Shown here: positions 4,984 to 49,235 of the stretch, in pieces
How positions within the stretch are numbered: position 1 is the first letter of the stretch
How the letters are laid out: the number at the start of each line of letters is the position of its first letter
Assembly (NCBI GenBank): GCA_016788465.1
Contig: JAEURV010000066.1
Coordinates: forward strand, 1-57,900
Origin: Nitrospira sp.
Lineage (GTDB): Bacteria > Nitrospirota > Nitrospiria > Nitrospirales > Nitrospiraceae
DNA length: 57,900 nt
Reading direction: 5' to 3'
Translations under genes and position numbers: made by a program
The notes under the pieces: generated by a model
The model's database searches: none
Seen by the model: only the letters and a program-made list of their open reading frames with translations
Told to the model about the DNA's origin: nothing

Positions 4984-4999
4984 TGGCACGAGGCTTGTA
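4984..4999 (+). promoter_or_regulatory. Sigma54-type promoter for fliK-flgD-flgE
   Basis: TGGCACGAGGCTTGTA matches the -24/-12 consensus TGGCAC-N5-TTGCW with one change (TTGT for TTGC). It ends 35 bases before the fliK start codon, leaving room for a short leader. The next genes are hook genes, which in many polarly flagellated bacteria use RpoN with a FleQ/FlrC-type activator. No such activator is encoded in the window. Confidence 0.72.
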
Positions 5000-5034
5000 A
5001 TAAGTCCTGCCGGAATCTTACGAGGACGCGAGTT

Positions 5035-6657: not shown

Positions 6658-6675
6658 GATTAAGGGAGACTCCAG

Positions 6676-7335: not shown

Positions 7336-7355
7336 CAAAGAGGAGGACTGTACCG

Positions 7356-8714: not shown

Positions 8715-8728
8715 GTTCCTGGGTTCTA

Positions 8729-8754
8729 GCCCGGGAAGGACAGCCTTCCCGGGC
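8729..8754 (+). terminator. Strong stem-loop after flgE
   Basis: An 11-bp perfect inverted repeat, GCCCGGGAAGG and CCTTCCCGGGC, with a 4-base loop, beginning 15 bases after the flgE stop. No clean T tract follows (the sequence continues CGTGCTCTCCTCCCC), so it may end transcription inefficiently or protect the 3' end of the hook mRNA. Confidence 0.6.
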
Positions 8755-8958
8755 CGTGCTCTCCTCCCCTTCATCCCACTAGGGCGGCCATTTCCAGCCA
8801 GAAGTGGGCGCATGTATCACGTCAGTTTCTTGACGGTGTCAACGACTCGCCTGACGCTGTATGAAGAAATTGCCTGTCATCAGGTCGGCTTTTCAGTAAA
8901 TATCGTGCCAAATACATCTATTGTGAATCACCTTGGTCGGTGGTCACAAAGCGTTCAA

Positions 8959-8974
8959 TGGCATATGCATTGCA
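8959..8974 (+). promoter_or_regulatory. Sigma54-type promoter for fliL and the export-gate operon
   Basis: TGGCATATGCATTGCA fits TGGCAC-N5-TTGCW with a single change at the sixth base. It ends 39 bases before the fliL ATG in a 299-base intergenic region that otherwise holds only the flgE stem-loop. It is the likely start of the long run of same-strand genes fliL to fliA. Confidence 0.78.
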
Positions 8975-9013
8975 GTTGCTTCACGGGGGCGATGAGGCCT
9001 TCAAGGAGGAGCT

Positions 9014-9565
9014 ATGGCAGATGCAGCCGAAACGGACGATAAAACTCCAGGAGCGGCCATCGCTCCGGCATTCCCAATCAAGTTGCTCATTATTGTGTCG
9101 GCGGTTGCCCTCCTGTTCGGTGTGGGAGGAGCGGTCGTGGCGGTCAAATTCTTCGGTGGATCCGATAAAAATGCCGAACATGCTGATGAACATAAGACCG
9201 AGACTGCAGCGAAGTCCGAGGCACCAAGCGGAGCGAGTGGGAAACCAGGGCAGACGGCCGCTCCGGGAGTCATGTTCGACCTCGATCCCTTTATCGTGAA
9301 TCTGGCGGACGTGCCGGATGTGCGCTATCTGAAGCTGACCGTCAAGCTTGAGGTAGAGAATGATGCGGTGTCGGCTGATCTCTCTGCGCGGGTTCCGCAG
9401 GTTCGTGATGCGGTGCTGGTATTGTTGAGCAGTAAAGATGTGAACGCCGTGAGAACCACGCAAGGGAAATTTCAGCTGAGGGATGAGATTACTCAACGAA
9501 TCAATGGGTTGCTCCCCAAGCCTGGTGTACGGTCGGCATACTTCACGGATTTCGTCGTTCAGTAA
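9014..9565 (+). CDS. fliL: Flagellar basal body-associated protein FliL
   Basis: FliL is a single-pass inner-membrane protein that surrounds or stabilises stator units. The 183-residue product has a short cytoplasmic tail, one membrane segment at about residues 25-47 (LLIIVSAVALLFGVGGAVVAV), an Ala/Glu/Lys-rich linker and a periplasmic stomatin-like domain (FDLDPFIVNLADVPDVRYLK near residue 95). The conserved FIVNL motif is present. The ATG has an ideal AAGGAGG five bases upstream. fliM follows after 11 bases. Confidence 0.95.
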   Translation: MADAAETDDKTPGAAIAPAFPIKLLIIVSAVALLFGVGGAVVAVKFFGGSDKNAEHADEHKTETAAKSEAPSGASGKPGQTAAPGVMFDLDPFIVNLADVPDVRYLKLTVKLEVENDAVSADLSARVPQVRDAVLVLLSSKDVNAVRTTQGKFQLRDEITQRINGLLPKPGVRSAYFTDFVVQ

Positions 9566-9576
9566 CCACCGTCATT

Positions 9577-10551
9577 ATGGAAAAGATTCTCTCGCAAGAC
9601 GAAATCGATGCGCTCTTGAAGGGCGTCGTTTCTGGTGAAGTCGATACCGCTCCCAAGGAAAACGAGACCGCTGCAAAGGGTGTTGCTCAATACGATTTAT
9701 TCAATCAAGAGCGGATTATTCGCGGGCGAATGCCCACGATGGAAATGATCAACGATCGCTTTATTCGCCGTCAATCCGTTGCCTGGACCAATATGTTTCG
9801 TGATGCCATCGATTTTGTCGTGGTCGGAACCCAAGTGATCAAGTTCGGCGAGTTTCTGAAAAAGATCCCACAGCCTTCGTCGTTGAATGTGTTTCATATG
9901 TCCCCCTTGCGCGGCAGCGCGCTCTACGTGATGGACGCCTTTCTCGTGTACTTGATCATCGATTATTTCTTCGGCGGCAAGGGGCAAACGCACGTAAAAC
10001 CGGAAGGCCGAGATTTTACCCCGGTGCAGTTGCGCGTGATCAAGAAATTGTTGCTGCAAGCGCTGGTGGATCTCGAAAAAGCGTGGCAGGCGGTCGCTCC
10101 GGTCAAAGTAGAGTATGTGCGATCTGAAAGTAACCCGCAGTTTGCGATGGTGGTGACGTCTTCCGAGATCGTGATGGTCGTCACGTTGCAGGTGGTTCTC
10201 GGGGAAACCGCCCGGGAGCTCTATATTGTCTATCCGTACGCCATGCTCGAACCGATCAAGGAGAAATTATATTCCGGTTTGGTCTCGGACCAAGTGGATC
10301 AGAACGGAGACTGGAGTCAACGATTTCGAGAGCGTCTTCAGGAATGTCCGCTGCCGATCGCCGTCCGACTTGGAACTGCGACGGTGACCGTCAAGGATGT
10401 TCTCAATTTCTCTCCAGGAGACGTGGTGTTGCTGGATCAACGGCCGGGTGATCCGCTCGAATGTTTTATCGAAGGGTACAAGAAATTCCAAGGGAGTCCC
10501 GGTATTTACAAAGGGAATCACGCATGTCGCGTGACCAAAGTGTTGACGTAA
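9577..10551 (+). CDS. fliM: Flagellar motor switch protein FliM
   Basis: FliM is the C-ring protein that binds phosphorylated CheY. The 324-residue protein starts with the CheY-binding peptide (MEKILSQDEIDALLKGV), followed by the middle CheC-like domain (about residues 45-230, containing GRMPTMEMINDRFIRRQSV) and a C-terminal SpoA/FliN-like domain (about 245-320, with FSPGDVVLLDQ). This confirms that the switch can be addressed by the CheY encoded later in the window. No clear ribosome binding site precedes the ATG, so translation may depend on fliL, whose stop is 11 bases upstream. Confidence 0.97.
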   Translation: MEKILSQDEIDALLKGVVSGEVDTAPKENETAAKGVAQYDLFNQERIIRGRMPTMEMINDRFIRRQSVAWTNMFRDAIDFVVVGTQVIKFGEFLKKIPQPSSLNVFHMSPLRGSALYVMDAFLVYLIIDYFFGGKGQTHVKPEGRDFTPVQLRVIKKLLLQALVDLEKAWQAVAPVKVEYVRSESNPQFAMVVTSSEIVMVVTLQVVLGETARELYIVYPYAMLEPIKEKLYSGLVSDQVDQNGDWSQRFRERLQECPLPIAVRLGTATVTVKDVLNFSPGDVVLLDQRPGDPLECFIEGYKKFQGSPGIYKGNHACRVTKVLT

Positions 10552-10576
10552 ACGGGACCGGAGGACGCGAACGACC

Positions 10577-10945
10577 ATGGCCGAATCAGAATCTACGACA
10601 CCTCTTGATTCCAAGACCGGCGGAGGGACGTCTCCACAGCTTGCATCGTTTCCGCCTGTGCAGGGCTCCGAAACAGGCGGCAGTACGAAGAATATCGATT
10701 TTATCCTCGATATTCCGATGAATGTCGCGGTGTATGTGGGATCCACCAAAATGGCGATCCGCGACCTCTTGCAGTTGGCGCAAGGGTCCGTCATCGAGCT
10801 TGATAAATTGGCAGGTGAACCAATGGAAGTGATGGTGAACAATAAGCTGGTTGCACGCGGCGAAGTTGTCGTCGTGAACGAAAAATTCGGTATTCGGCTG
10901 ACGGATGTGGTCAGTGCGGCCGAGCGTGTCCAACAGCTTCGGTAA
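10577..10945 (+). CDS. fliN: Flagellar motor switch protein FliN
   Basis: FliN forms the base of the C-ring and docks the FliH-FliI complex. The 122-residue protein has an unstructured Thr/Ser/Gly-rich N-terminus (about 1-40) and one SpoA domain (about 45-120) with the typical IPMNVAVYVGSTKMAIRDLL, LDKLAGEPMEVMVNNKLVA and FGIRLTDVVSAAERV segments. This hydrophobic patch is where FliH binds in enterobacteria, which is relevant because the FliH here carries a receiver domain. Confidence 0.97.
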   Translation: MAESESTTPLDSKTGGGTSPQLASFPPVQGSETGGSTKNIDFILDIPMNVAVYVGSTKMAIRDLLQLAQGSVIELDKLAGEPMEVMVNNKLVARGEVVVVNEKFGIRLTDVVSAAERVQQLR

Positions 10946-10963
10946 AGGGCAAGGGGAGAGATC

Positions 10964-11371
10964 GTGATCGACATATGGGATAGTCTGATTCGAACCGTCT
11001 TGGCGTTGGCCGTGGTGTTGGTGTGTATTGGGCTTGCTGCCTTCGTGGCGCGTCGTGTGATGGGGCCACGGGCAGGACAGTCCAACGGCCGGCCGCTCAT
11101 CCAGGTGTTGGCCAGCGGCTATCTTGCTCCGCGCAAGACGATCAGTCTGGTGGAAGTCGCCGGTGAGTACTTGATCGTGGGAGCGACGGCAACCGATCTG
11201 ATTTCCTTGGGTCGGATCAGCAACACGGCGCACTTACGCGAATTGCTCGGGCTACCGGCTCAGCCCCCCTCGACCGAGACGACATCGGTCCCAGGGACGG
11301 AAGTCGCATCATGGCTTCAGCGACAACCCCTCCATTGGGCAGATCGTGATAAGGACCACCATGGCCACTGA
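10964..11371 (+). CDS. fliO: Flagellar biosynthesis protein FliO
   Basis: FliO is a small membrane protein that aids assembly of the FliP ring of the export gate. The 135-residue product has one membrane segment at about residues 9-30 (TVLALAVVLVCIGLAAFVAR) and a small cytoplasmic beta-rich domain with the recognisable pattern LASGYLAPRKTISLVEVAGE followed by YLIVGATATDLISL. It starts at GTG with GGGGAGAG upstream and overlaps the fliP start by 11 bases. Confidence 0.92.
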   Translation: MIDIWDSLIRTVLALAVVLVCIGLAAFVARRVMGPRAGQSNGRPLIQVLASGYLAPRKTISLVEVAGEYLIVGATATDLISLGRISNTAHLRELLGLPAQPPSTETTSVPGTEVASWLQRQPLHWADRDKDHHGH

Positions 11372-12128
11372 TCCTGTCCGTTGCAAACTCCTCGGCTGGA
11401 CGGTCGTTGTCGGAGTGGGGATGCTTTTGCTGGCGTCGCCGACAGACGCGGCCACAAACGGTCCGTCTGTCAGTATTGATTTTGGGGCCGGCGGTCCAAA
11501 ACAGATGGCCGTGACCATCCAGATTCTTATCCTATTGACGGTGCTGTCCTTGGCACCGGCGTTATTCATTATGGTCACGTCGTTTACCAGGATCGTTATT
11601 GTCTTGTCCTTCCTACGGCAAGCGCTCGGCACACAAGCCGTGCCACCAAACCAAGTCTTGTTGTCCTTGGCCCTGTTCCTGACGATATTCATCATGGCGC
11701 CGGTTGGGCAGTCTGTCTACAGCAATGCGCTGCAGCCGTTGCTTGCCGAACAGATTTCTTATGAGGATGCCTGGAAGAAGGGGATCGAGCCGGTTCGGGG
11801 GTTTATGCTGAAACAGGTTCGGGATAAGGACCTTGAGTTGTTCATTCAGTTGAGTCACATCCCCAAGCCGGAGCGAGCGGAAGAGATTCCAACCCATGCC
11901 ATCATTCCCGCATTTATTCTGAGTGAGTTGCGAATCGCCTTTCAAATTGGGTTCTTGATCTACATTCCATTTCTCATCGTCGATATGGTGGTCGCAAGCA
12001 TTTTGATGTCGATGGGTATGATGCTCCTGCCTCCAGTCGTGATCTCCCTCCCATTCAAGTTGATTCTGTTTGTGTTGGCTGACGGGTGGTATCTGGTGGT
12101 CGGCTCGATGGTGCGCAGTTTTCAGTGA
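11361..12128 (+). CDS. fliP: Flagellar export gate protein FliP
   Basis: FliP forms the core pentamer of the export gate. The 255-residue protein has a cleavable N-terminal signal peptide (hydrophobic core VVVGVGMLLLASP, then Ala-rich processing region), followed by four membrane segments and the family signatures ITSFTR-type (here VTSFTRIVIVLSFLRQALGT) and the C-terminal segment VASILMSMGMMLLPPVVISL. ATG 11361 is chosen rather than an upstream GTG at 11346, since AAGGA lies five bases before it. Confidence 0.97.
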   Translation: MATDPVRCKLLGWTVVVGVGMLLLASPTDAATNGPSVSIDFGAGGPKQMAVTIQILILLTVLSLAPALFIMVTSFTRIVIVLSFLRQALGTQAVPPNQVLLSLALFLTIFIMAPVGQSVYSNALQPLLAEQISYEDAWKKGIEPVRGFMLKQVRDKDLELFIQLSHIPKPERAEEIPTHAIIPAFILSELRIAFQIGFLIYIPFLIVDMVVASILMSMGMMLLPPVVISLPFKLILFVLADGWYLVVGSMVRSFQ

Positions 12129-12218
12129 CCCCATGATCGTACGAGTGCGTGAGGACACAGAAGTTTCGTGGGCGTTGGCTGCTAACGATTCGGGACAAGC
12201 GCCGGTGAGGAAGCATCG

Positions 12219-12488
12219 ATGACACCTGAAATCGTGACGGAATTGGCCAGGCAGGCACTGGAAACAACGTTGCTTGTATCGGCTCCAATCTTAGGACTGA
12301 GTCTGCTTGTCGGTCTCATCATCAGTGCCTTTCAAGCCATGACTCAGCTGAATGAGGCCACCCTGACATTTGTTCCTAAAGTGTTTGCGCTCTTCGGAGC
12401 GCTCTTGGTGTTTCTCCCCTGGATGTTGAACGTCATGACGACGTTCATGGCGAATCTCCTGATGAACATTCCCAACTACGTGCGCTAG
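12219..12488 (+). CDS. fliQ: Flagellar export gate protein FliQ
   Basis: An 89-residue protein with two membrane helices (about residues 15-38 and 52-75), the whole length of FliQ, which packs around the FliP-FliR gate. The pattern ETTLLVSAPILGLSLLVGLI followed by SAFQAMTQLNEATLTFVPK is the family hallmark. GAGGAAG precedes the ATG. A 90-base gap separates it from fliP, and a 227-base gap with a palindromic repeat follows it. Confidence 0.97.
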   Translation: MTPEIVTELARQALETTLLVSAPILGLSLLVGLIISAFQAMTQLNEATLTFVPKVFALFGALLVFLPWMLNVMTTFMANLLMNIPNYVR

Positions 12489-36430: not shown

Positions 36431-36526
36431 AAAGAGACGGGAGAATAGTTGCACGTATGCCAATTCGTTCAACGGTCACGTTCACTGTTACCGTGGGGGT
36501 AGCGAAGCGGCAGAAAGGTGGAAGGG

Positions 36527-39500
36527 ATGCAGCGATTAAGCGTCAACATCATCTATGGGAATCATGGCCATGCGATTCACACGGAAGATACTCTGGAATA
36601 TGTGCGAGAAGGCCTGGAGAGCACCGGCTTGAGCGTACGATATTCTCGCGGGGAGTACTTAACGGACGGGGTGAACATTGTCATGGAATGTCACCACCGA
36701 GGTCAGAATCTGTATGAGCAGATTTCAACGGCAAGGCAGCGGTATCCGCAGTCTCGGCTATACGTGATTGTTACAGAGATGCTGACTCCGGATGGGTTTA
36801 ATTCGGCAAATATGAAGATGGTGGAATCCCATGAATCAACAACTCCCTACCATGATCGTGCCTACTGGAATGAGAGGACCAAGGCCTTTATGGGTCTTGT
36901 TCCCGTGGTTGACGGGCTATTCCTAATTGGACTGGAGCCTATTGAGGGCTGTTTGCCCCTGGGGTATGAGAAAGAGGTGGGACTCTATTTTCAGTTGGGG
37001 AAACCGGTGCATCTGATTCCCTTGTGTGCTCCACCGCAGCTTTCTACGGTTTCGGGAGGTGAACGTCAGTATGGCGAGCAAGATATCGACGTATTGTTTA
37101 CCGGATCTGTCACGCCGTACCGAAGAAAGATACTCGACACGTTGCGGGCAAAGGACATGCGGGTCGTGACTCTAGAAGCCCATACAGCCGCTTATTTAAG
37201 AAACAACTATGTACGCCGAAGCAAGTTATCTGTCGGACTGAAATTGTCGGATGAGACGCAAATCTTATCCTTGCAACGTGCCTATTTCCATTTGGTGAAT
37301 AGAGTGCCGCATGTGTTTGAGCGTACTCCGATACGGTCTCCGTTCGACCCATTCCTGAATTTTGCCGACAGCGGGGAGGCCTTTGTCAAAGCGTGCGAGG
37401 CCGTATTGACGGGAGAGCAGCCATGTCCTACCCGGTATTTTTCAGAATTTTACCGTGCTACGAGCGGAAAGTATCAGGATACGTTTGAACGTCTTCGGAC
37501 AATGCTGGAGCAAGAGGCCGGATGGCAGCCGACCAGACAGGTTTCTCGGTCTCATGCGGGAGGGAATGGTGAGAGGCACGGACACGGCGTTACGGAAAGG
37601 CACGCCATGAGTGATTGCCGTAAGATGTACGGCAGGCTTGAGGAAGAGTATTACCAGTATTGTCGTGAAGCCAAGCAGCCCTACTTCGGCAAGATCATGT
37701 GGGCATCTCAGGGATTGCCTCTTCGACATGCAATCATGCAGGAAGTCGTGCGTCTCGAAGCAGTGCGTGCCGGGAGTAATCCTCTGCATGTTCTGGAGGT
37801 AGGGGCCTGGGCGGGTGGATCGGCCATCACCTGGGCAGAGGCGATTTCTAAGTTCCATGGAGGCAATGGACAAGTCCTCTGTGTCGATCCCTGGAAGCCC
37901 TACTTCGATATGGCCAAACGGCCGGATACGCGACTTTATCGGGAGATGGCCGATGCATTGTCGAGCGACACGATCTATGATTTATTCCTCCATAATATCC
38001 AGGCGTCCGGGCATGAACAGCGCGTCATTCCACTCCGTGGACAGAGTACAACCGTTCTGCAGACCTTACCGCATGGACATTTTGATTTAGCCTATATCGA
38101 TGGAGATCACAGCTATTCTGCCGTGCTGGCTGATCTGACCGCCGCTTGTGAGCTGGTGAAGGACGGAGGCATCCTGTGCGGTGATGACTTGGAGCTGCAG
38201 CTGGATGAAATTGATGTGGCATACGCCAAGACCCAGATTGAGTCGGACTATATCGAAGATCCCCGATCTCGCAAGCACTATCACCCGGGAGTGACGTTGG
38301 CGGTCGGTGAACTCTTTGGCCGGGTATCCGTCGCGGAAGGCTTCTGGGCGATACGGCGTCAGGGAGCGCAATGGGTGAATGTTGATTTTTCTCCCATTCA
38401 CTGCACGGAAAAGGATATCCCGAGACATCTTATCTCGAATAATCCCGCCGATGATCATGCGTTTCGCGAGTGGTTGAAGCGTAGACGTCAACCTGAGTCG
38501 GTTTCGTCGGTGCCTGTTTCCCATCAAGAAGTACCCTCACCACGCGTAACAGCCCATTCAGCCAAAGGTCCCAAGATCTTACTCCTCCAATTGGAGTTTC
38601 CTAATTGGCAGCAGGGTCGTGCATGGTCGTATGCCGCGTCTTATGGAGTGGCAGATGGCTTGCGTGCGAATGGTGCGCAATGCACAACCATTCCTTTGAT
38701 TGCGAACAGTGCGAGCCATTCGGACGCCTGGCTGGCTCATGCACGGAGCCTCGTGGCAGGACAACGATTCGACCAGGTCTGGGTCTGGCTGGTACATACG
38801 CCCTTTGATCAGCAGGTTTTGGATTGGATCAGCGGTTTGGCCCCTGTCCGAGTCGGGGTGGTGATGGAATCGCTGGTCTATGATCAGACGGACTATGACT
38901 GGGCCCCTCATCTGCGCGAGCGTCAAGGGCGGGTCGAACGGGAGTTACGGAGTTGCACTCATGCCCTATTGCTTGATGAGTGTGATGCTCAACGCCTTAT
39001 CGGGCGTGTGCCGGTTGAAGCCTTATGGTGGCCTCCCATGGTGCCTGCACGGTTCATTAAGGCTTCCACCCTGCCGCCTACGCACGATGTCGGAGTGTTT
39101 CACGGCACTCCCTATGGAACACGGCAACAATGGCTCACGCATCCTATCCTTAAGGAACATCTCCGCTTTGTTCAATCGGGGCAGCCGACCACGCAGTTCC
39201 AACGCATGTATGATCAATTACAGGCCGTGATGCTGCGTCGGATGAGCTCCGCACTACCGGTCTCGCCTGTTCAGATGGCTGAGTATGTGGAGACATTGCA
39301 CAAGATCAGGGAAGGGGAATTCGGCGAATGGATAGGCCGACTGCCACAATGGGCGGCAATAGTGAATTTGCCGAGTCTCGCGAAAGGTTTTGGTGGGCGT
39401 GTGTTCGAAGGCATGGCGGCCGGACGTCCCGTGGTGTCCTATCCCATACCGAATCATCCCTTGAACAATGCCTTGTTTGTGGATGGCGAGGAAATTGTAT

Positions 39501-42500
39501 TCTACGACGCTGCATCTACGGAGTCTCTGAGAGAGGCGCTTGATCGTGTTCTACGCGACCAGTCTTTGGCAACGAAGCTTGCTCGTAACGCGGAAAACAA
39601 GCTTCGGGCCTTCCACACCAGCGAGTACCGCCTGAAGCAAACACTCGCTTGGATCGAATCCGGGCAGAAACCAGATTATGGTGTCGCTGTTTCGCAAAGT
39701 CCCAAACAATCTCGACCGATTGTGGCATCGGAGACGGGTCGGGGAATCCAGGAGCGTTCAGTGGAAGATAAGGACGCAGATCGTTTTTACGTCAATCTCT
39801 TTGTCAACGCACCGGAGTGGTCTACACCTCATCCGAATGCGGATGAGGCCGCACGCTGGACCAAGATTGCCTCGTTCTTGGAGTGCATCCTTCGACGGGT
39901 CCGTCAGAAGAATCCACAGAAGGAATTGCGTATTTTGGACGTCGGGTGTGGGCGTGGCTGGCTTACGAAGTTGGCATCTGTATATGGCGTCTGCGAAGGT
40001 GTCGAGCCCGTGGCGGAGGTTGTGGCCCATGCACGGAAGATGTTTCCGTACCTGAGATTTGAATCAGGGACCGCCGACCAAGTTCTCTCACGTGCGGACT
40101 TCGCTCCGTACGATGTCGTCTTGACTTCCGAAGTTCTCGAACATGTTCCTCACGGGCAGAAAGATCTCTTCCTTGCACAGCTGGCTGCTCTTCTGACAGC
40201 TGAGGGGTACCTCATTCTGACGACCCCTCGCGGAGAAATGTGGGATCAGTGGATGACCATTGCGCCGCCGAATCAGCCGGTTGAGGACTGGGTGACGGAG
40301 GAGGACTTACGTCAGTTGTTCCGCCGCCAAGGATTTACTGAGATTGGTTTGGAGCGAGTCCACGTGGAAGTACCGGGGCTTCGGTACGTGCCTGCACCGA
40401 CTCCAGCGGAGCTCGGATCACGGAAGTTGCTGCCTATCTACCAGGTGTGGGCGTGCCAGCGTGTCGGGCCGGTCCGACCTGCGACTTTCACACGTCGGCC
40501 CAAGGTTTCAGTCATCGTACCGACCTACAATCGACCGGACCGTCTGAAAGTGGCCCTGCAGAGTATCCTCCGACAGACATTTCAGGACTTTGAGATCATG
40601 GTCGTCAATGACGGAGGTCTCGATGTCGCGTCGACGGTGGCGACGCTCAACGACGGGCGCATCGTCTATATTCAGCACGATCGAAATCGAGGCCTTGCAG
40701 CTGCTCGGAATACGGGATTGGCTGCGGCAACAGGCATGTACATCGCCTACCTCGACGACGACGATCGGTATTTGCCGGACCACTTAGAAACACTGGTGTC
40801 GGCCTTGGATGAGGGGGCGCATAAGGTCGTTTATAGCGACGCCTGGCGAGTCAGCGAGCGGCGGGAACAGGATCGCTATATTGAAGTGGGCCGAGACGTG
40901 CCGTATTCGTACGACTTCAATCCGGCCGACCTGCTTGTATCAAATTATTTTCCGGTGCTCTGTGTGATGCACCATCGAGCATGCGTTGAACAGGTTGGGC
41001 GGTTTGATGAATCACTCTTTGCTCATGAAGACTGGGATCTGTGGATCCGCATGGCGACAATATCCCCCTTTAAGCATGTGAAACGCACGACAGCCGAGTT
41101 CAGCTGGCGAACAGACGGGTCTTCGATGACAAGCGCGACGCAAGAAACGTATTGGCGTACGACGGAGATTATCTATCACAAGTATCGGCCTTACGCCGAA
41201 CGAATGAAGGGAGTACGCCAAGCACAGGAGAAACGGTTGGAGGATCTCCGCCGCGCCAGGAGTAGGCGCGACTATGTCTGTTCCATCGTCATGCCAGTGT
41301 ATAACCGAATGGAACTCACGAAAGATTGCCTCACAGCTTTGGCAGGAATGAACGATCAGCCGGAGTACGAACTGATCATTGTGGATAATGGGTCTACTGA
41401 CGGTACAGCCGATTTTCTTCGGCAACTCAGCGGTGACGTCCAGATCATCCGCAATGAAGAGAACCGCGGGTTTGCCAAAGCTTGCAATCAAGGGGCAAAG
41501 GTCGCTCGAGGCCGATATCTGGTGTTCTTGAATAACAACACAATTCCGCAAACGGGTTGGCTGGAAGCCTTGGTCCGAGAGGTGGAGCAAGACCGGGATA
41601 TTGCCGTGGTAGGCAGCAAGCTCCTCTACGGCGACGGGACCATACAGCATGCAGGTCTGGTGTTTCCCCGTACTGGCGGAATTCCATACCACTTGTACCA
41701 GCATCTCCCCGGCGATTGTCAGGCCGTCAGTGGGCGTCGTGAATTTCAGTGCGTGACAGCCGCCTGCATGCTGGTCCGGCGTGAATCCTTTGAGGAAGTC
41801 GGAGGGTTCGATGAAGCCTACCGCAATGGGTTTGAGGATGTGGATTTGTGCCTGAGGATTCGAGAGCAGGGCCACCGCATCGTCTATCAACCGAGAAGCG
41901 TCGTCATCCATCTTGAGGAGCCAACGTTCAGAAGGAAGGCGCATGACGAAGAGAATACGCGCCTGTTTTTGAGCCGCTGGGAGAAACACTGGTGGCTGGT
42001 GGATGAAGATCTCTACTACCACGCCGATGGCTACAAAATGGTCGGCGGTGAAGCGACCGCCAACGATGCGGGGCATGTGCGGATGATCGAGAACATCAAA
42101 GACCGCGCTGCATGGGCACATGTGGCGGCCGCGCAATCAGCCGCGCAAAAAAGAGACTGGGGCGGGATCAAGCGGGAATTGAGCTTGGCGCAGGACTGGC
42201 CGAACGACCCCTCTGTGCTGGACTGGGGCGCGATGGTAGCTGAGCAGCTGGAAGAGCCGGTCTATCGGGCACAGTTTCTCGCCAGGCATGTGGGTTTGGT
42301 CGATGATCCAGTCCGTCGACTCGAATTGATCCGCATGTTGTTGGAACAGAAGAACTTGGCGGGAGCCGAGGAGCACCTACGTGCCATACTGGATGCGTCC
42401 CCTGACCATGCCGGGGGGCTTCTGCTCAAAGGTATTCTGTGTATGCAACATGAGCAGTTCGGAGAAGCGGAAGCTGCATTCAGTGCCGCGCTTTGCCAAG

Positions 42501-42892
42501 GGGCCGAACGCAGAAAATGTCTGATGGGCATGGGGATGGCCGCAATGGGAAGAGCCTACACGCAGGGTGCCTGGGAACGGTTTCTTGAGGTGTTGGCTGA
42601 TTATCCAGATGATACCGAAGCGATTCATTGGTTGCTCCGTGCGGGGACGGCACAAAATCGTTGGCATGAGTTAGCTGAGCATTTGCACATCTACGTAACG
42701 AGGAATCCGGGAGATCTTGCTTCCCGCTTTGCGTATGCCAGCGTTTTGTTGCGGGGTGAACAGATTCATGCAGCTAGGCGCGAATACGATGCGCTATCGC
42801 GGGTTGCTCCCACCTATGACGGGTTGGAGCAACTCGGCCGGGCGATTTCCGGGAGGGAAGCAGTGCTCGCTCTGGAGCCTGCTTCGTCTTAG
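36527..42892 (+). CDS. Giant multi-domain glycosyltransferase/methyltransferase
   Basis: A 2121-residue protein with no signal peptide. Order, by eye: GT-B-like domain about 1-350 (FTGSVTPYRRKILDTLRAK); SAM-methyltransferase-like domain about 380-610 (LEVGAWAGGSAITWAEAI; LAYIDGDHSYSAVLADL); second GT-B domain about 680-1060 (FGGRVFEGMAAGRPVVSYPI); second methyltransferase about 1080-1310 (ILDVGCGRGWLTKLAS; TSEVLEHVPHGQKDLF); GT2 domain about 1324-1570 (VSVIVPTYNRPDRLKVALQS; AYLDDDDRYLPDHLE); second GT2 about 1580-1810 (SIVMPVYNRMELTKDCLTAL; FLNNNTIPQTGWLE); TPR-like helices about 1860-2121. In the second GT2 the usual NND motif reads NNN, so its metal site may be altered. Position before the flagellin gene suggests flagellin glycan synthesis, which is inference. 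AAAGG lies eight bases before the chosen ATG. Confidence 0.85.
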   Translation: MQRLSVNIIYGNHGHAIHTEDTLEYVREGLESTGLSVRYSRGEYLTDGVNIVMECHHRGQNLYEQISTARQRYPQSRLYVIVTEMLTPDGFNSANMKMVESHESTTPYHDRAYWNERTKAFMGLVPVVDGLFLIGLEPIEGCLPLGYEKEVGLYFQLGKPVHLIPLCAPPQLSTVSGGERQYGEQDIDVLFTGSVTPYRRKILDTLRAKDMRVVTLEAHTAAYLRNNYVRRSKLSVGLKLSDETQILSLQRAYFHLVNRVPHVFERTPIRSPFDPFLNFADSGEAFVKACEAVLTGEQPCPTRYFSEFYRATSGKYQDTFERLRTMLEQEAGWQPTRQVSRSHAGGNGERHGHGVTERHAMSDCRKMYGRLEEEYYQYCREAKQPYFGKIMWASQGLPLRHAIMQEVVRLEAVRAGSNPLHVLEVGAWAGGSAITWAEAISKFHGGNGQVLCVDPWKPYFDMAKRPDTRLYREMADALSSDTIYDLFLHNIQASGHEQRVIPLRGQSTTVLQTLPHGHFDLAYIDGDHSYSAVLADLTAACELVKDGGILCGDDLELQLDEIDVAYAKTQIESDYIEDPRSRKHYHPGVTLAVGELFGRVSVAEGFWAIRRQGAQWVNVDFSPIHCTEKDIPRHLISNNPADDHAFREWLKRRRQPESVSSVPVSHQEVPSPRVTAHSAKGPKILLLQLEFPNWQQGRAWSYAASYGVADGLRANGAQCTTIPLIANSASHSDAWLAHARSLVAGQRFDQVWVWLVHTPFDQQVLDWISGLAPVRVGVVMESLVYDQTDYDWAPHLRERQGRVERELRSCTHALLLDECDAQRLIGRVPVEALWWPPMVPARFIKASTLPPTHDVGVFHGTPYGTRQQWLTHPILKEHLRFVQSGQPTTQFQRMYDQLQAVMLRRMSSALPVSPVQMAEYVETLHKIREGEFGEWIGRLPQWAAIVNLPSLAKGFGGRVFEGMAAGRPVVSYPIPNHPLNNALFVDGEEIVFYDAASTESLREALDRVLRDQSLATKLARNAENKLRAFHTSEYRLKQTLAWIESGQKPDYGVAVSQSPKQSRPIVASETGRGIQERSVEDKDADRFYVNLFVNAPEWSTPHPNADEAARWTKIASFLECILRRVRQKNPQKELRILDVGCGRGWLTKLASVYGVCEGVEPVAEVVAHARKMFPYLRFESGTADQVLSRADFAPYDVVLTSEVLEHVPHGQKDLFLAQLAALLTAEGYLILTTPRGEMWDQWMTIAPPNQPVEDWVTEEDLRQLFRRQGFTEIGLERVHVEVPGLRYVPAPTPAELGSRKLLPIYQVWACQRVGPVRPATFTRRPKVSVIVPTYNRPDRLKVALQSILRQTFQDFEIMVVNDGGLDVASTVATLNDGRIVYIQHDRNRGLAAARNTGLAAATGMYIAYLDDDDRYLPDHLETLVSALDEGAHKVVYSDAWRVSERREQDRYIEVGRDVPYSYDFNPADLLVSNYFPVLCVMHHRACVEQVGRFDESLFAHEDWDLWIRMATISPFKHVKRTTAEFSWRTDGSSMTSATQETYWRTTEIIYHKYRPYAERMKGVRQAQEKRLEDLRRARSRRDYVCSIVMPVYNRMELTKDCLTALAGMNDQPEYELIIVDNGSTDGTADFLRQLSGDVQIIRNEENRGFAKACNQGAKVARGRYLVFLNNNTIPQTGWLEALVREVEQDRDIAVVGSKLLYGDGTIQHAGLVFPRTGGIPYHLYQHLPGDCQAVSGRREFQCVTAACMLVRRESFEEVGGFDEAYRNGFEDVDLCLRIREQGHRIVYQPRSVVIHLEEPTFRRKAHDEENTRLFLSRWEKHWWLVDEDLYYHADGYKMVGGEATANDAGHVRMIENIKDRAAWAHVAAAQSAAQKRDWGGIKRELSLAQDWPNDPSVLDWGAMVAEQLEEPVYRAQFLARHVGLVDDPVRRLELIRMLLEQKNLAGAEEHLRAILDASPDHAGGLLLKGILCMQHEQFGEAEAAFSAALCQGAERRKCLMGMGMAAMGRAYTQGAWERFLEVLADYPDDTEAIHWLLRAGTAQNRWHELAEHLHIYVTRNPGDLASRFAYASVLLRGEQIHAARREYDALSRVAPTYDGLEQLGRAISGREAVLALEPASS

Positions 42893-42896
42893 AGAG

Positions 42897-44081
42897 ATGG
42901 CCAAACGCGCACTTCTGATCCAATTGGCCAGACTTGGTGATCTTGTACAAACGGTTCCGGTCATTACGGCGCTTAAGGAAACGCATGAAGACTGGATCCT
43001 TGACCTGTTGTGTCCGGCACATCTGGAAGGAATTGGACTAATCTTGCCGGGAATTGGAGCAGTGGTACCGTGGGATGGGGCTGCATGGAATCAACGGGCG
43101 CGGGTCGTGGAGAACGATCTACTGCCCGACCACGTGGTCGAGGCCGATGCCGCGCTTCGTACGATCGTGGACGAGCCCTATGAGTGCGCATTTGTGCTCA
43201 ACCAACATCCCCGTGCGATCCTGGCTGGGGCGCTCCTGGCACGAAAGAGTCTGGGAGCAGTGAGCGGTGGGCCGGTTGATCATAGATTATCACCCTGGGC
43301 AACCTACGTGAGAGCTGTGGCCAACGACAGAAGAGAGAACCGCATTCATCTAGCCGATGCATTTTGCGGGATGTGCGGTGTTCCTCCGCCCAAAGACGTG
43401 GTGCAGATACAGATGCCCTCCGTTCGACTTCCGCAAGAGCTTGATCCGATCGGAGAGTCTTCCGGCCCATGGATCGGAGTCTTAGTGGGAGCAGCTGCCT
43501 CGGAGCGAGTGGTTCCGGTCACGGCTTGGGCAGAATTCATTGCAGGTTGCCTGGATGCTCTCCATGGGAGTCGTGTCGTATTGATCGGAAGTCGACAGGA
43601 ACAAGAACGAGCCGGCTGGATTCTGACGTCACTTCCTTCTTCCCTCTTAGGGCGAGTCTGGGACACGACCGGTCGACTTTCGTTGACGGAATTGGCACAG
43701 GCACTTACTCGTTGCCAGGTTGTCGTTGGATCCGACACCGGCCCGCTGCATCTGGCAGTAGCCCTGGGGACCAAGGTGATCGGCTGGTATTTTGCCAGGG
43801 CGCGGGTTCATGAAACGGGACCCTACGGCCGGAGCCATTGGGTATGGCAAGCAGAAGGAGTAGGGGGGGAGACTGGAGAAGCAATTACGCCGCACTGTTG
43901 GCCGATCGAGGAGACCATCGGCCTCCTGTCCAATTCCCAGGTGGTCGCAGCTCAAGATTGGTCGCTCTGGAGCAGTCATCGGGATCGGTGGGGCGCATAT
44001 TATGTTCAGGCGGGACATGAACCGGTTGCCCCGCTTCAACGGGAACAGGTTTGGAACGAGTTGCATTCTACGGCGGTGTAA
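42897..44081 (+). CDS. Glycosyltransferase family 9 (heptosyltransferase-like)
   Basis: A 394-residue GT9-like protein. The N-terminal pattern ALLIQLARLGDLVQTVPVIT (residues 5-24) is the classic start of ADP-heptose:LPS heptosyltransferases, and SDTGPLHLAVALGTKVIGWY near residue 280-300 is the nucleotide-sugar binding signature. ATG 42897 follows the previous stop by four bases and makes the conserved segment N-terminal; the longer frame from 42717 lies within the giant gene. As part of a flagellar locus it may add a sugar to a flagellin glycan rather than to LPS. Confidence 0.87.
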   Translation: MAKRALLIQLARLGDLVQTVPVITALKETHEDWILDLLCPAHLEGIGLILPGIGAVVPWDGAAWNQRARVVENDLLPDHVVEADAALRTIVDEPYECAFVLNQHPRAILAGALLARKSLGAVSGGPVDHRLSPWATYVRAVANDRRENRIHLADAFCGMCGVPPPKDVVQIQMPSVRLPQELDPIGESSGPWIGVLVGAAASERVVPVTAWAEFIAGCLDALHGSRVVLIGSRQEQERAGWILTSLPSSLLGRVWDTTGRLSLTELAQALTRCQVVVGSDTGPLHLAVALGTKVIGWYFARARVHETGPYGRSHWVWQAEGVGGETGEAITPHCWPIEETIGLLSNSQVVAAQDWSLWSSHRDRWGAYYVQAGHEPVAPLQREQVWNELHSTAV

Positions 44082-44092
44082 GGGGGAATTCA

Positions 44093-45910
44093 GTGGAGTA
44101 CCTGAACGCAAACTTAGAGCGTCTTCGTCAGACCGCTCCCGATCTTGCCGGGGCTGTGCGAGACAGCCCCGGTGGTGTGCTCACCGTGGTTCCTTCACGC
44201 GAGGGTTCTCCTTCGGCGACGTATGGAGGGCAATGGATCCATAGTGCCTATGACCCCAAGAAAGAGGCCAGGTCCTGGGTAGAACAACAACTCAAGGAAT
44301 GGAAATCGGACGAGGCGGCCGTGGTTCTTGGGGTAGGTCTCCTCCATCACGTGGAGGCCCTCGCCATTTCGCTGCCGCCCGATGCAGGAATGGTCGTCGT
44401 AGTACCAGATATGTCTGTATTGAAAGATGCAATGGGTGCAAGGCCTTTCGGATCCTGGGTCAACAGGATTCAGTGGGTGACCGGTACAGTCGAGGATATG
44501 GCCGCGCAGCTGGCTGCACAACCATCTCCTCTACGATTCTTGACGTATGGGGCAGCGGCACGACTCCATGCTGACGCGCATCAGCAACTACAGAAGAGGC
44601 TAGGCCAAATCATGGCTGGCAAGGCGGGCGGCCAACTGCATGTGGCGGTGGTTGGTCCGATCTACGGCGGATCGCTCCCGATTGCTCGCCATGTTGTATC
44701 CGCGTTGAACGAACTGGGTCACCGAGTGACGTGGCTCGATCATCATCTCCATCAGGGTAGCTATGACGCCCTCGGATCCTTTCGTGAAGAGCGTCATCGA
44801 CTGACGCTGCAGAGTCGATTTGCCGACGTCCTGAGCCTGAGCACCATGGCGCATCTGGCGGAGGATCCACCGGATCTGGTTCTGGCTCTTGCCCAAGCGC
44901 CGCTGACACTGGCGGTGTTGCAGCACTTGCGGAAGAAGAAATTTCTGACGGCGATGTGGTTTGTCGAAAACTACAGACATCTCACATACTGGCGTCAATT
45001 GGCGGCTGGGTACGATTACTGGTTTGTGATTCAGCAAGGGGATTGTCCTGATGCGTTGAAACGGGCTGGAGCGACTCACGTTCATTATCTACCTATGGCG
45101 GCAGATCCCAACGTACATCGTCCAGTGACCCTAACCACGGCTGAGCAACAGGAATATGGAGCCGACGTCTCCTTTGTCGGGGCTGGCTATGCCAACCGGA
45201 GGAAACTGCTGCCTCAGTGGTTGTCGAAGGAATGGACGTTGAAGCTGTGGGGGAATGAATGGGACGGTGCCCTGGATCTCTTGAGCGTACTCCAACGCAA
45301 CGGGGCTCGTATCGATATGGATACCTGCATCAAGGTGTTCAACGCTACGGCCGTGAATCTGAATGTGCATTCGTGCTCCGGCATGGGCCTGGATCCTCAA
45401 CCGGATTTCGTTAATCCTCGCACCTTTGAGCTGGCCGCCTGCGGCGCATTTCAGTTGGTGGACGAGAGGACACTGCTCCCCGATCTCTTTACGCCGGAGG
45501 AAGTCGTTCGCTTTCGGAAGCCTGAAGAGGTTCCGCAGTTGATTCGGACGTGGGTCAAGGATGGCACTGGACGGCGTGACTATGCCGACGCGTCTCGCCG
45601 ACGGGTCTTACGTGACCATACCTATCGTCATCGTGTGCAGGAGCTTCTTGCCGCGGTTGGTCTACATCAGCCGGATCGCATAGGCTCAATCTTGCGGGGG
45701 GATCGGTCGACGATAGGACTCACGGAACGGGCCACTGCCTTGCCGGAGCTGCTCCCCTTGCTCAACCGGTTTCCGACGGGGCAACGTATCGAGTTGAAAG
45801 ACCTTGCAGCTGATATTCGCGCACGAGCTCCCGGGCGCCAACTGGCACGAGAGGAGTTGCTTGTCCTGATGCTCGACAGTTATCGGGTTGAAACAAAAGA
45901 TCTTGTATGA
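44093..45910 (+). CDS. Maf-like N-terminal region joined to CgeB-type glycosyltransferase
   Basis: A 605-residue protein. The first 190 residues include YDPKKEARSWVEQQLKEWKS followed by a VVLGVGLLHHVEALA segment, a pattern seen in the N-terminal part of Maf (motility accessory factor) flagellin glycosylation proteins. Residues ~200-560 are CgeB/GT1-like (LHVAVVGPIYGGSLPIARHV, ADVSFVGAGYANRRKLLPQW, NPRTFELAACGAFQLVDERT). The join of the two is inferred by eye. GTG 44093 is chosen: AGGGGG lies upstream, 11 bases after the preceding stop. A longer frame from 44051 overlaps the previous gene. Confidence 0.72.
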   Translation: MEYLNANLERLRQTAPDLAGAVRDSPGGVLTVVPSREGSPSATYGGQWIHSAYDPKKEARSWVEQQLKEWKSDEAAVVLGVGLLHHVEALAISLPPDAGMVVVVPDMSVLKDAMGARPFGSWVNRIQWVTGTVEDMAAQLAAQPSPLRFLTYGAAARLHADAHQQLQKRLGQIMAGKAGGQLHVAVVGPIYGGSLPIARHVVSALNELGHRVTWLDHHLHQGSYDALGSFREERHRLTLQSRFADVLSLSTMAHLAEDPPDLVLALAQAPLTLAVLQHLRKKKFLTAMWFVENYRHLTYWRQLAAGYDYWFVIQQGDCPDALKRAGATHVHYLPMAADPNVHRPVTLTTAEQQEYGADVSFVGAGYANRRKLLPQWLSKEWTLKLWGNEWDGALDLLSVLQRNGARIDMDTCIKVFNATAVNLNVHSCSGMGLDPQPDFVNPRTFELAACGAFQLVDERTLLPDLFTPEEVVRFRKPEEVPQLIRTWVKDGTGRRDYADASRRRVLRDHTYRHRVQELLAAVGLHQPDRIGSILRGDRSTIGLTERATALPELLPLLNRFPTGQRIELKDLAADIRARAPGRQLAREELLVLMLDSYRVETKDLV

Positions 45911-45958: not shown

Positions 45959-45995
45959 ATGAAACTCGCAACTGGCTGTCTGGTCGAGATTGTAC

Positions 45996-47669
45996 ATGAA
46001 GCAAGTCTTAATTTTAAACATTACCAGGATGGGCGATCTCGTCCAGATGGGTACATTGTTGGAACGTCTCCATGAGGAGTGGCCTGGAGTTGCCGTGGAC
46101 CTGGTTGTGGATCGCCGGTTTGCGCCGGTTGCGTCGTTACTGAGGGGTTTGCGCGAGGTCGTCGCCTTGGATTTTCAGGTCCTGATCGAGGAGAGCCGTG
46201 CCCTCGTGAAGGATGTGGTTGCGCTGTATCACGAGACGGCGGCCTGGGCGAAGCCGTTGGCGGAACGGCGGTATGATCGCGTGATTAATCTCACGTTTAA
46301 TAAGCCGAGCGCGCTCCTGGCTGGATTCATCGGCGCACCCGATATTCGAGGGGTACAAAGCGCATGGGATGGGGGGCTCGTGATCGAGAATCCTTGGATG
46401 GCGTATTTTTCGGATTTTCACCAATTCCGACAATTGAATCGGTTCAATCTCGTCGATATCTACGCGCTTGGCGGCAGTCGCCCAGGGGCATTTTCGCCGC
46501 TTCGACTCTTCCTTGCTCGGGAGGACCACATGTGGGCGAAGGAAACCCTCACCGGGTCGACTCAGTGGATTGCCGTGCAGGCCGGAGCCAGTGACAGCAT
46601 GAAAGCCTGGCGGCCTCACCTTTTTGGCCAGACGTTGGCTCAGGTGGCCAAACGATGGCGCGGTGGAATTGTCTTCATCGGCAGCCGGGAAGAGGAAGCC
46701 ACGATCGCGGAAGTCATGCAGGTCTATCGAGAGGCAGGGGGGAAGAACGCGGTTAAGAATATGGCGGGTCGCACAACGTTAAGTCAGCTGGCCGGGCTAC
46801 TGGCGGAATGCCAAGTGCTGCTGACCAACGATACCGGACCTATGCATATTGGCGTGGCGGTGGGCACTTCGGTGATCGATCTGTCGGTGGGACATGTCTC
46901 GTTCCAGGAGACCGGCCCCTATGGGCCTGGCCATTGGGTGGTTCAGCCGGAATTGGACTGTGCTCCTTGTGGGTTCGAACAAGTCTGTGCCCACCATGCC
47001 TGCAAGGACCGTCTCTCCCCAGATTTTGTGGCTGATCTCATGTGTCATGTGTTGAAGACTGGACCATGTCCCACCAAGGCTGTCGGGGGACGCCTCTACG
47101 AGTCCGGAGTGGATGAGGATGGACTCGGTTCCTTTAACTTAAGAATCGGGATGGAGGCTCCCACCACGGCATGGTATGCGGCGTTTTGGCGCCGCTACTG
47201 GTATGAAACACATACTGGATTACCGAGCCGTCTTCCACTCCTGGAAGCGAAGCCTCCCGATGCCCCAGCGGTCACGGCACAGCTGCGGACACTGATGCCG
47301 CTTCTGGAGGTATCCTGCCGACGAGCTGATCAGATTGCACAGGTGGCTCGTAGGGCATCGGCCAACATTCCGGAGTTGAAACGGCTTCAGGGCGAGCAGC
47401 GAGTTGATCAGGAGCGGCTGCTGCGTATTGGCCTAACCACGGAGGCCATCGCTCCTCTCACGGCAGCGTTCGGCCGTGAGATGCGAAATGACAATGTCGT
47501 CGGTCTGGCTAAACTTGCACAGCATCAGGCTCATGCCTATCACACATGGCTGAGACGTTTGAGAGATTTTGAGCGGTATCTGGTTGACAGATCCCCCAGG
47601 GATCGGGGTGTCACGCCTGGGCATAGAGGAAATCTGATCACAGGTGGGCGGGAGCGGCAAGTGGCATAA
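45996..47669 (+). CDS. Second GT9 (heptosyltransferase-like) glycosyltransferase
   Basis: A 557-residue protein. The N-terminus VLILNITRMGDLVQMGTLLE is the GT9 start pattern, and the segment LLTNDTGPMHIGVAVGTSVI near residue 270-290 is the nucleotide-sugar signature. A Cys-rich stretch near residue 325-345 (DCAPCGFEQVCAHHACKD) is typical of some heptosyltransferases. The C-terminal ~200 residues are a helical extension with charged and hydrophobic heptads, absent from plain GT9 proteins. ATG 45996 is chosen over an in-frame TTG at 45990. Confidence 0.85.
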   Translation: MKQVLILNITRMGDLVQMGTLLERLHEEWPGVAVDLVVDRRFAPVASLLRGLREVVALDFQVLIEESRALVKDVVALYHETAAWAKPLAERRYDRVINLTFNKPSALLAGFIGAPDIRGVQSAWDGGLVIENPWMAYFSDFHQFRQLNRFNLVDIYALGGSRPGAFSPLRLFLAREDHMWAKETLTGSTQWIAVQAGASDSMKAWRPHLFGQTLAQVAKRWRGGIVFIGSREEEATIAEVMQVYREAGGKNAVKNMAGRTTLSQLAGLLAECQVLLTNDTGPMHIGVAVGTSVIDLSVGHVSFQETGPYGPGHWVVQPELDCAPCGFEQVCAHHACKDRLSPDFVADLMCHVLKTGPCPTKAVGGRLYESGVDEDGLGSFNLRIGMEAPTTAWYAAFWRRYWYETHTGLPSRLPLLEAKPPDAPAVTAQLRTLMPLLEVSCRRADQIAQVARRASANIPELKRLQGEQRVDQERLLRIGLTTEAIAPLTAAFGREMRNDNVVGLAKLAQHQAHAYHTWLRRLRDFERYLVDRSPRDRGVTPGHRGNLITGGRERQVA

Positions 47670-47687
47670 GCTGAGGGGAGATGACAC

Positions 47688-48215
47688 ATGAATGTAAAAT
47701 TGGACAACGAGCAGTGGCAAGCCATCAGTACCGCAACGCTCGGTGACATCCTCGCAGAATTGAGCGAGCGGGCCGATGCGCGGTCTCGAATCGTCACGAA
47801 GATCGTATTGGATCATCGTCGGATTACGGATCGAGACATCGATCCACATTTACTTCAACAACCGGCTACGAGTTACCGTGAGTTAGTCGCGACTTCTGAG
47901 ACGCAGCTGGAGATGATTGAATCGGCTCGTGGTGCGATCGAGCGCTACTGTAGGTTGGTCGTGGCCGAAGGCACCTCGCTGGCCAATCAGTTTCGGATGG
48001 GGGTACAGGATTTGTCGTCGTTCGATGCTTGGCTCGGGAAGGTGGCGGATGCAGTCGAGGTCATTGAGAACGGCCGGAAACAGGTAGGAACGCCATCTCA
48101 GGGGCAAGCCATCGCAGGGTGGATCGAACAGCTCCTGGCTGCGAGGCATATTCATGATACCGTGAGGATGGCAGATCTACTGGAATATGAGATCCTTCCG
48201 CGGATAGCGGCTTGA
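47688..48215 (+). CDS. Conserved-looking protein of unknown function upstream of flagellin
   Basis: A 175-residue soluble, mostly helical protein (MNVKLDNEQWQAISTATLGD at the start), with no signal peptide, membrane segment or motif I recognise. It has a strong ribosome binding site (GAGGGGAGATG) and follows the second GT9 gene by 18 bases, so it is likely co-transcribed with the glycosylation block. Its charged, heptad-like composition with few Cys residues resembles secretion chaperones or adaptor proteins, but nothing proves a function. Confidence 0.72.
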   Translation: MNVKLDNEQWQAISTATLGDILAELSERADARSRIVTKIVLDHRRITDRDIDPHLLQQPATSYRELVATSETQLEMIESARGAIERYCRLVVAEGTSLANQFRMGVQDLSSFDAWLGKVADAVEVIENGRKQVGTPSQGQAIAGWIEQLLAARHIHDTVRMADLLEYEILPRIAA

Positions 48216-48282: not shown

Positions 48283-48309
48283 TCAAGTCCTAGGGGGATT
48301 GGCCGATAA
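48283..48309 (+). promoter_or_regulatory. Sigma28-type promoter for the flagellin gene
   Basis: TCAAGTCC (48283-48290), 11-base spacer, GCCGATAA (48302-48309). The -10 box is a perfect consensus and the spacing is the canonical 11. Transcription would begin near 48316, about 92 bases before the flagellin ATG. Confidence 0.87.
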
Positions 48310-48407: not shown

Positions 48408-49235
48408 ATGGCACTTATCGTTAACAATAACCCCGCATCCATTGCGGCACAGCGCAACCTGTCGGTCAATACCCTTGGCCTGAACCGGTCGGTTGAGCGG
48501 CTGTCATCTGGTCTCCGGATCACACGAGCAGCTGATGACGCTGCTGGCCTCGGATTGTCGGAGTCCTTGCGGGCGCAGATTCGCAGTATCAATCAAGCGA
48601 CTCGAAACGCGTCGGACGGTATCAGCTTGACGCAGATCGCCGACGGTGCGGCAGCCACCATCGGGTCGTTGCTCGCTCGGCTTCGCGAACTGTCCTCCCA
48701 GTCCGCCAGCGGCACGGTGGGGAATACCGAGCGGTCCTACATCGATCAGGAGTTTATCGCGCTGCGGTCAGAAATCGACCGTATTGCTCAGGTGACCGAA
48801 TTCAACGGCCAGGCACTGACGAGTGGTTCTACAATCAGCTTCTCAATCGCCATTGGGTTCCGCAGTGGTTCAGGGAATACGCTGAGCCTGGATCTCAACG
48901 ACATCACCACCAGCTCGTTGGGGCTGAGCTCGGTGAACGTGTCCACGGCGACAGCTGCGACAAACGCATTAGCCAGTATCGACAGTGCGATCAGTGCCGT
49001 TGCAAGTGCACGAGCCGAATACGGGTCAATTCAGAACCGATTCGAGGCGACCATCGCCAATCTGCAGGTGACGAGTGAGAACCTCACGGCTGCAGAATCG
49101 CGTATCCGTGATGCGGATATTGCGCTTGAGACCTCTGTCTTCACCAAGAACCAGATCTTGGTGCAGGCCGGTATCGCGACCTTGGCCCAGGCCAACACGC
49201 TACCGCAACAAGCACTGGCGTTACTCAGAGGATAA
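48408..49235 (+). CDS. fliC: Flagellin (filament protein)
   Basis: A 275-residue flagellin, short relative to the ~500 residues of enterobacterial FliC. The conserved D0/D1 N-terminus (MALIVNNNPASIAAQRNLSV, later LSSGLRITRAADDAAGL) and C-terminus (ESRIRDADIALETSVFTKNQ, ILVQAGIATLAQANTLPQQA) are complete, and the surface domain between is only about 50 residues (Ser/Thr-rich). Such Ser/Thr-rich regions are typical glycosylation sites. It is the only flagellin in the window. A strong AAGGAGG precedes the ATG. It has its own sigma28-like promoter. Confidence 0.98.
   Translation: MALIVNNNPASIAAQRNLSVNTLGLNRSVERLSSGLRITRAADDAAGLGLSESLRAQIRSINQATRNASDGISLTQIADGAAATIGSLLARLRELSSQSASGTVGNTERSYIDQEFIALRSEIDRIAQVTEFNGQALTSGSTISFSIAIGFRSGSGNTLSLDLNDITTSSLGLSSVNVSTATAATNALASIDSAISAVASARAEYGSIQNRFEATIANLQVTSENLTAAESRIRDADIALETSVFTKNQILVQAGIATLAQANTLPQQALALLRG

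Follow-up and report, generated by a model that had tools for sequence, protein, structure and literature searches.

That bacteria glycosylate their flagellin is well established. In Maf systems, as described for Aeromonas Maf1 (PMC4065374), flagellin is modified in the cytoplasm by a transferase that binds it. For Caulobacter, a second report (PMC7591256) describes FlmG, a dedicated flagellin-glycosylating enzyme carrying its own flagellin-binding N-terminal domain, and FlaF, a separate small flagellin-related protein that serves as a secretion chaperone.

Composition of the locus and comparison with described systems

We analysed the window, that is, the whole stretch of 57,900 nucleotides of Nitrospira DNA, and within it a gene for a protein of 175 residues (the accessory protein) located between glycosyltransferase genes and the flagellin gene fliC. 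The features of this region are the following:

36518..42892, + strand: giant 2124-aa multidomain glycosyltransferase/methyltransferase, located upstream in the cluster (Pfam)
42717..44081, + strand: GT9a, second GT9 glycosyltransferase, less constant (PF01075, E 1.4e-16)
44051..45910, + strand: GT4, glycosyltransferase with DUF3880 and Glyco_trans_1_2 (PF13524, E 6.7e-34; PF12996, E 1.7e-16)
45990..47669, + strand: GT9b, glycosyltransferase of the GT9 (heptosyltransferase) type, extended at its C-terminus (PF01075, E 1.2e-20)
47673..47681, + strand: Shine-Dalgarno-like GAGGGGAGA, a few bases 5' of the accessory ATG (sequence)
47688..48215, + strand: accessory protein gene, 175 aa (open reading frame with ATG start; AlphaFold2 pLDDT 91.5)
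47688..47903, + strand: predicted N-terminal beta-grasp (ubiquitin-like) domain, residues 1-72 (AlphaFold2, Foldseek)
47928..48212, + strand: predicted C-terminal four-helix bundle, residues 81-175, whose end D157..D163..LEYE..P171 is conserved (AlphaFold2; columns invariant in 80 sequences)
48283..48309, + strand: possible sigma-28-type promoter of fliC, TCAAG-N14-GCCGATAA, 3' of the accessory gene (sequence)
48408..49235, + strand: fliC, short flagellin, 275 aa (PF00669, E 7.5e-35; PF00700, E 4e-25)

Comparison of the module formed by GT4, GT9b and the accessory protein with the Maf systems gave three likenesses, namely that flagellin would here too be modified in the cytoplasm by a transferase binding it, that part of the GT4 family shares the Maf N-terminal domain, and that in a genome of the same genus the slot is taken by a classical NeuB/Maf cluster. 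The Maf domain, PF20157, was found in 11 of the 22 GT4 family members (distant orthologues; best E 4.7e-11); it was not reported for the window's own GT4, which is 31-38% identical to the 11 distant members. The locus differs from the Maf systems in that DUF3880 and Glyco_trans_1_2 stand in place of the MptE-like catalytic part (PF01973 was listed for none of the 22 members at E<=0.01), in that no NeuB occurs among the module cluster genes examined, and in that two further proteins, GT9b and the beta-grasp/helical accessory protein, are present. The joining of the Maf N-terminal domain to a different catalytic part suggests that GT4 is related to the Maf transferases but has had its catalytic domain exchanged.

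The locus would resemble the FlmG/FlaF pair of Caulobacter (PMC7591256) in combining a dedicated flagellin-glycosylating enzyme with a separate small flagellin-related protein. A difference is that the accessory protein gave no FlaF profile match and tracks the transferase rather than the flagellin. It has a helical bundle of a size similar to FliS, but shows no profile relation to FliS, which is encoded separately in the same cluster.

The accessory gene and its neighbors

The initial annotation had credited the accessory gene with a ribosome binding site, and a ribosome-binding-like GAGGGGAG indeed precedes its ATG, with AGGAG-like sites at the same position in most of 80 relatives. Among six near relatives, the substitutions at codon positions 1, 2 and 3 numbered 328, 193 and 1060, respectively, and 851 codon differences were synonymous as against 457 non-synonymous; since the differences lie mostly at third positions, the open reading frame is that of a maintained protein. 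The protein had been assigned to no family, and profile searches agreed, with zero Pfam families at E<=1 and zero NCBIfam matches at E<=10, while distant members gave only chance-level NCBIfam matches. A sequence search of solved structures with the accessory profile returned four weak and uninformative matches, the best of which (E 0.043) was a designed fibre.

In the window, 18 bases separate the end of GT9b from the accessory gene and 192 bases separate the accessory gene from the start of fliC. Across 80 relatives' loci from Nitrospira and its sister families, GT9b was immediately 5' in 79 of the 79 assessable loci and fliC was immediately 3', again in 79 of 79 (one locus per side reached a contig end), which confirms the fixed place between glycosylation genes and flagellin that had been proposed. 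The accessory gene overlapped GT9b by 17-20 bases in 5 of these 79 loci. The distant families, from which we fetched 16 loci of 31 weak positives (see below), showed another arrangement: GT9b was directly 5' of the accessory gene in 14 of the 16, but fliC was not adjacent, the usual followers being CheY-, PilZ- and MotA-like genes. In the remaining two loci (L142 and L144) GT9b was not in the fetched stretch.

The gene located 5' of GT4 was variable, a different transferase being present in five loci (L032, L033, L113, L120 and L122) while GT9b was constant, so that the giant glycosyltransferase is not a constant partner of the accessory protein. The giant protein combines two GT2 domains and one that is GT1-like with methyltransferase domains and TPRs. 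GT9b itself contains a CxPCxF-x3-C-x4-C motif (46959-47003 in the window) that is unchanged in all 18 orthologues aligned and is possibly a metal site. A second GT9b copy with no accessory gene alongside was seen at 5047-6759 of locus L157 (genome G232).

The promoter candidate at 48283..48309 is, judged by the consensus, possibly of the sigma-28 type. One half of the motif, GCCGAxA, was present in 40 of 80 loci compared with about 11% of shuffles, and in 15 of 80 on the reverse strand; this enrichment suggests that fliC may have a transcript separate from that of the glycosylation genes.

Distribution of the accessory family

A single-sequence query detected the accessory protein in 33 of 59 near genomes, and profile A1, built from 19 sequences, detected it in 118 of the 395 genomes of the phylum. 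Cultured Nitrospira moscoviensis has the gene too (locus L067). Two families (f1 and f3) accounted for 87 of these positives, all strong except G173, in which the hit is cut by a contig end, while the other 31 were weak (E 4e-6 to 5e-3) and came from other families. Alignment of the Nitrospira-type and distant profiles with hhalign gave a prob of 95.3 and an E of 2e-8 over 79 C-terminal columns. Of 14 distant relatives aligned, 10 were 132-147 aa long and lacked the beta-grasp domain; three loci (L134, L135 and L138) encoded an N-terminal domain at its place.

No plasmid relative was found with one distant member as query, and the plasmid search with GT9b returned 71 records with partial GT9 matches only, none spanning 80% of GT9b. 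Four pattern matches of the distant profile in viral contigs were rejected, none being a true relative. Locus L048 (G014) holds a 36-residue C-terminal remnant of the accessory protein (42% identity) near PilZ- and FlhG-like pieces, with no flagellin match there; it is perhaps a scar of flagellar loss.

Co-occurrence and co-divergence with GT9b

A profile of the C-terminal part of GT9b matched 127 of the 395 genomes, and 114 genomes had both this match and profile A1. Thirteen genomes had matched GT9b alone, and a second profile, built from distant members, then recovered the accessory protein in 10 of them (in G142 as a piece at a contig end); since it was built after the first result, these 10 genomes are no blind test. 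In the final tally, 124 of the 131 genomes with either protein had both, four had the accessory protein only and three had GT9b only, the latter being G242, with GT9b at a contig end, and G084 and G122, with a weak GT9b match and flagellin frames of 379 aa.

Pairwise distances were compared for the 64 of the 80 loci that have all eight cluster genes. The divergence of the accessory protein followed that of GT9b with an r of 0.930 and a partial correlation of 0.599 (bootstrap 95% 0.44-0.70), while the partial correlations were 0.02 for GT4, -0.30 for FliC, 0.005 for FliS and 0.14 for FlaG. FliD was also above zero, at 0.27 (0.12-0.43). When the set was thinned to 32 loci, GT9b was still first, with a partial correlation of 0.49. 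Being adjacent is not enough to explain the signal seen with GT9b, because fliC is adjacent too and shows no co-divergence; nevertheless, shared constraint together with tight linkage would also be expected to produce such a signal, which is suggestive and not proof of contact.

Relation to flagellin and its length

A flagellin match (E<1e-22) was present in 116 of the 118 accessory-positive genomes, the exceptions being G173, whose accessory hit is the one cut by a contig end, and G083. The family is thus not confined to non-flagellar contexts, and its proposed tie to flagellin-glycosylation genes stands.

We then compared flagellin lengths in the 204 genomes with flagellin, of which 129 have the module (defined as a match to profile A1 or GT9b) and 75 do not. 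The flagellin frame had a median of 284 aa (range 219-379) in the module genomes and of 510 aa (range 255-802) in the others, and frames of <=330 aa were found in 125 of 129 and 13 of 75 genomes, respectively (Mann-Whitney p 1.6e-24, Fisher 4e-34, both of which ignore relatedness). The same contrast was seen within genera. In g1, 47 module genomes had flagellins of <=319 aa and the module-less G127 had one of 652 aa; in g14, the length was 284 aa in five genomes with the module and 634-655 aa in four without it; in g116, it was 281 and 303 aa with the module and 522 aa without it. The accessory protein is therefore found mostly where the flagellin is unusually short, and the association of module and short flagellin is strong. 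The Nitrospira moscoviensis flagellin has a centre rich in Ser and Thr, at residues of about 150-200. Counter-cases were short flagellins with no module in G206 and G350 (g106, a genus that otherwise has it) and in G218 (g101), and module genomes with flagellins of >330 aa (G076, G084, G122 and G284). The second profile did not find the accessory protein in any of the 13 module-less genomes with short flagellins.

In G127, which belongs to the window's genus, the slot before a 640-aa flagellin is filled by genes for NeuB, a UDP-GlcNAc 2-epimerase and a Polysacc_synt_2 protein, together with one for a protein of 881 aa that has an MptE-like domain and TPRs and weakly matches the Maf N-terminal domain; judged by its gene content, this is a classical nonulosonate/Maf cluster. 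The same genes, 78-99% identical to those of G127, are present in G141 and G201 of genus g14, and the flagellins of G127 and G141 are 95.8% identical. Such identity of a cassette between two genera suggests joint horizontal transfer of the flagellin and the system that glycosylates it. The cassette (NeuB, epimerases, Maf-like 881-aa protein, flagellin) lies at 563-12394 of locus L145 (G127), with counterparts in L146 (G141) and L149 (G201).

Predicted structure of the accessory protein

AlphaFold2, run on the 80-sequence alignment A2, gave a mean pLDDT of 91.5 and a pTM of 0.72 for the whole protein, with the beta-grasp order spanning residues 2-71 and helices at residues 81-103, 109-129, 138-154 and 158-174. 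The initial annotation's description of a helical protein therefore holds for the C-terminal four-helix bundle but not for residues 1-72. Modelled alone, residues 1-75 were compact (pLDDT 92.8, order b-b-a-b-b-a-b). Foldseek with this domain gave nearly all ubiquitin-like proteins among the 50 matches listed (best E 0.011, prob 0.96), including FAT10, NEDD8 and ThiS (3cwi, E 0.016; prob 0.96 and E 0.011-0.016 for the three), and VIA-align gave the Ddi2 UBL as best match, with a middling score (Z 5.5, rmsd 2.6, 60 aligned). These scores support a ubiquitin-like beta-grasp fold class for residues 1-72, not a function. The predicted fold is that of NEDD8, FAT10 and ThiS, but the accessory protein has no Gly-Gly tail, is fused to a helical bundle and is encoded in a bacterial flagellar locus.

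The bundle matched generic helical bundles (best Z 10.2, rmsd 2.5, 96 aligned), and its weak matches included 6ch3, a complex of FliS and FliC (Z 6.7, rmsd 2.5, 86 aligned). The bundle is a common shape, none of the fold matches indicates a glycosyltransferase partner, and Foldseek on the whole protein gave no row below E 0.18. The last helix pair is the most conserved stretch, D157, D163, L165, E166, E168 and P171 being invariant in 80 sequences. Visual inspection had hinted at homology between the bundle and the extension that GT9b carries at its C-terminus, but this was rejected with hhalign (prob 0.1-0.2), as was kinship with FliS (PF02561; prob 2.7 for the distant and 0.1 for the Nitrospira-type alignment). 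No similarity to FlaF or FlbT profiles was found in Pfam (E<=1) or NCBIfam (E<=10).

Discussion

The link of the accessory protein to flagellin glycosylation is well supported. The explanation that fits best, and that we hold with roughly even confidence, is that the accessory protein, with no catalytic activity of its own, is a partner subunit of GT9b, and that GT4 (with a Maf-type N-terminus), GT9b and the accessory protein make up a module that glycosylates flagellin in the cytoplasm. Linkage, co-occurrence and co-divergence would fit physical binding between the accessory protein and GT9b. The initial annotation had suggested an adaptor presenting flagellin to the giant glycosyltransferase; an adaptor-type role is what we retain, with a different partner, since GT9b is constant and co-diverging while the gene 5' of GT4 varies.

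A flagellin-specific chaperone or presenter, FlaF- or FliS-like, that binds nascent flagellin and passes it to the transferases or to the export gate would account for fliC being the next gene in all 79 assessable Nitrospira-type loci and for the helical bundle with 6ch3 among its weak fold matches. It seems rather unlikely to us, because the accessory gene stays with GT9b when fliC moves away, as in the distant families, and does not co-diverge with flagellin (or with FliS); moreover, the cluster already encodes FliS, to which the accessory protein has no profile relation, and relatives with long flagellins manage without it. The distant families bear on two other readings. Their CheY-like, PilZ and MotA-like next genes would suit a flagellar protein with another task, in the motor or in chemotaxis, that is merely co-transcribed; co-occurrence with GT9b in 124 of 131 genomes (among 395), against 75 flagellin genomes in which neither was found, makes this improbable. 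Retention of the accessory gene with GT9b and not with fliC in the same families likewise argues against a protein that times flagellin synthesis as a regulator or through export control, in the manner of FlbT or an anti-sigma factor. Such a role would draw on the position of the gene before a fliC that has its own possible sigma-28 promoter, but with no Pfam match of any kind at E<=1 we regard it as decidedly improbable, and the export control raised in the initial annotation found no support in our analysis.

Sulfur carriers of the ThiS/MoaD type end, as a rule, in a C-terminal Gly-Gly. The beta-grasp N-domain, with ThiS (3cwi, E 0.016) among its top Foldseek rows, could recall a small enzyme or ubiquitin-like carrier making or loading a sugar donor; however, a Gly-Gly is missing both behind the domain and at the end of the protein, and 10 of the 14 distant relatives aligned lack the domain, so that this reading is hardly credible.

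If the accessory protein is a partner subunit of GT9b, the four-helix bundle, common to all members, would bind GT9b, and the beta-grasp domain, which Nitrospira-type members have and most of the distant members lack, would offer another surface for docking, perhaps of flagellin or GT4. A division of steps can be proposed by analogy: GT4 would use its Maf-type part to recognise flagellin, GT9b would extend the glycan or add to it, and the accessory protein would hold or activate GT9b. The complex would build a glycan on the short flagellin, the presumed acceptor, prior to export, and this glycan would stand in for the missing outer flagellin domains. A broader proposal, possible but short of probable in our view, is that the accessory protein is the first member to be recognised of a class of partner subunits dedicated to flagellin glycosyltransferases, that the module of a GT4 with a Maf-type N-terminus, GT9b and the partner replaces the classical nonulosonate/Maf system, and that module and flagellin size change in step, since what the outer flagellin domains do elsewhere is here done by the module's glycan.

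We found no description of the accessory protein or of a GT9-containing flagellin module in the open-licence literature, and three things appear to be new, namely the unnamed partner family, its bond to a GT9 enzyme and the connection with flagellin length. These results bear on why flagellins span about 275 to over 600 residues and on the extent to which a glycan at the surface can take the place of outer protein domains. The question is directly testable here, since flagellin length can be predicted from the presence of a three-gene module in much of the phylum and within single genera too. They also give a function-linked place to a family outside Pfam and NCBIfam, in ecologically important nitrite oxidisers.
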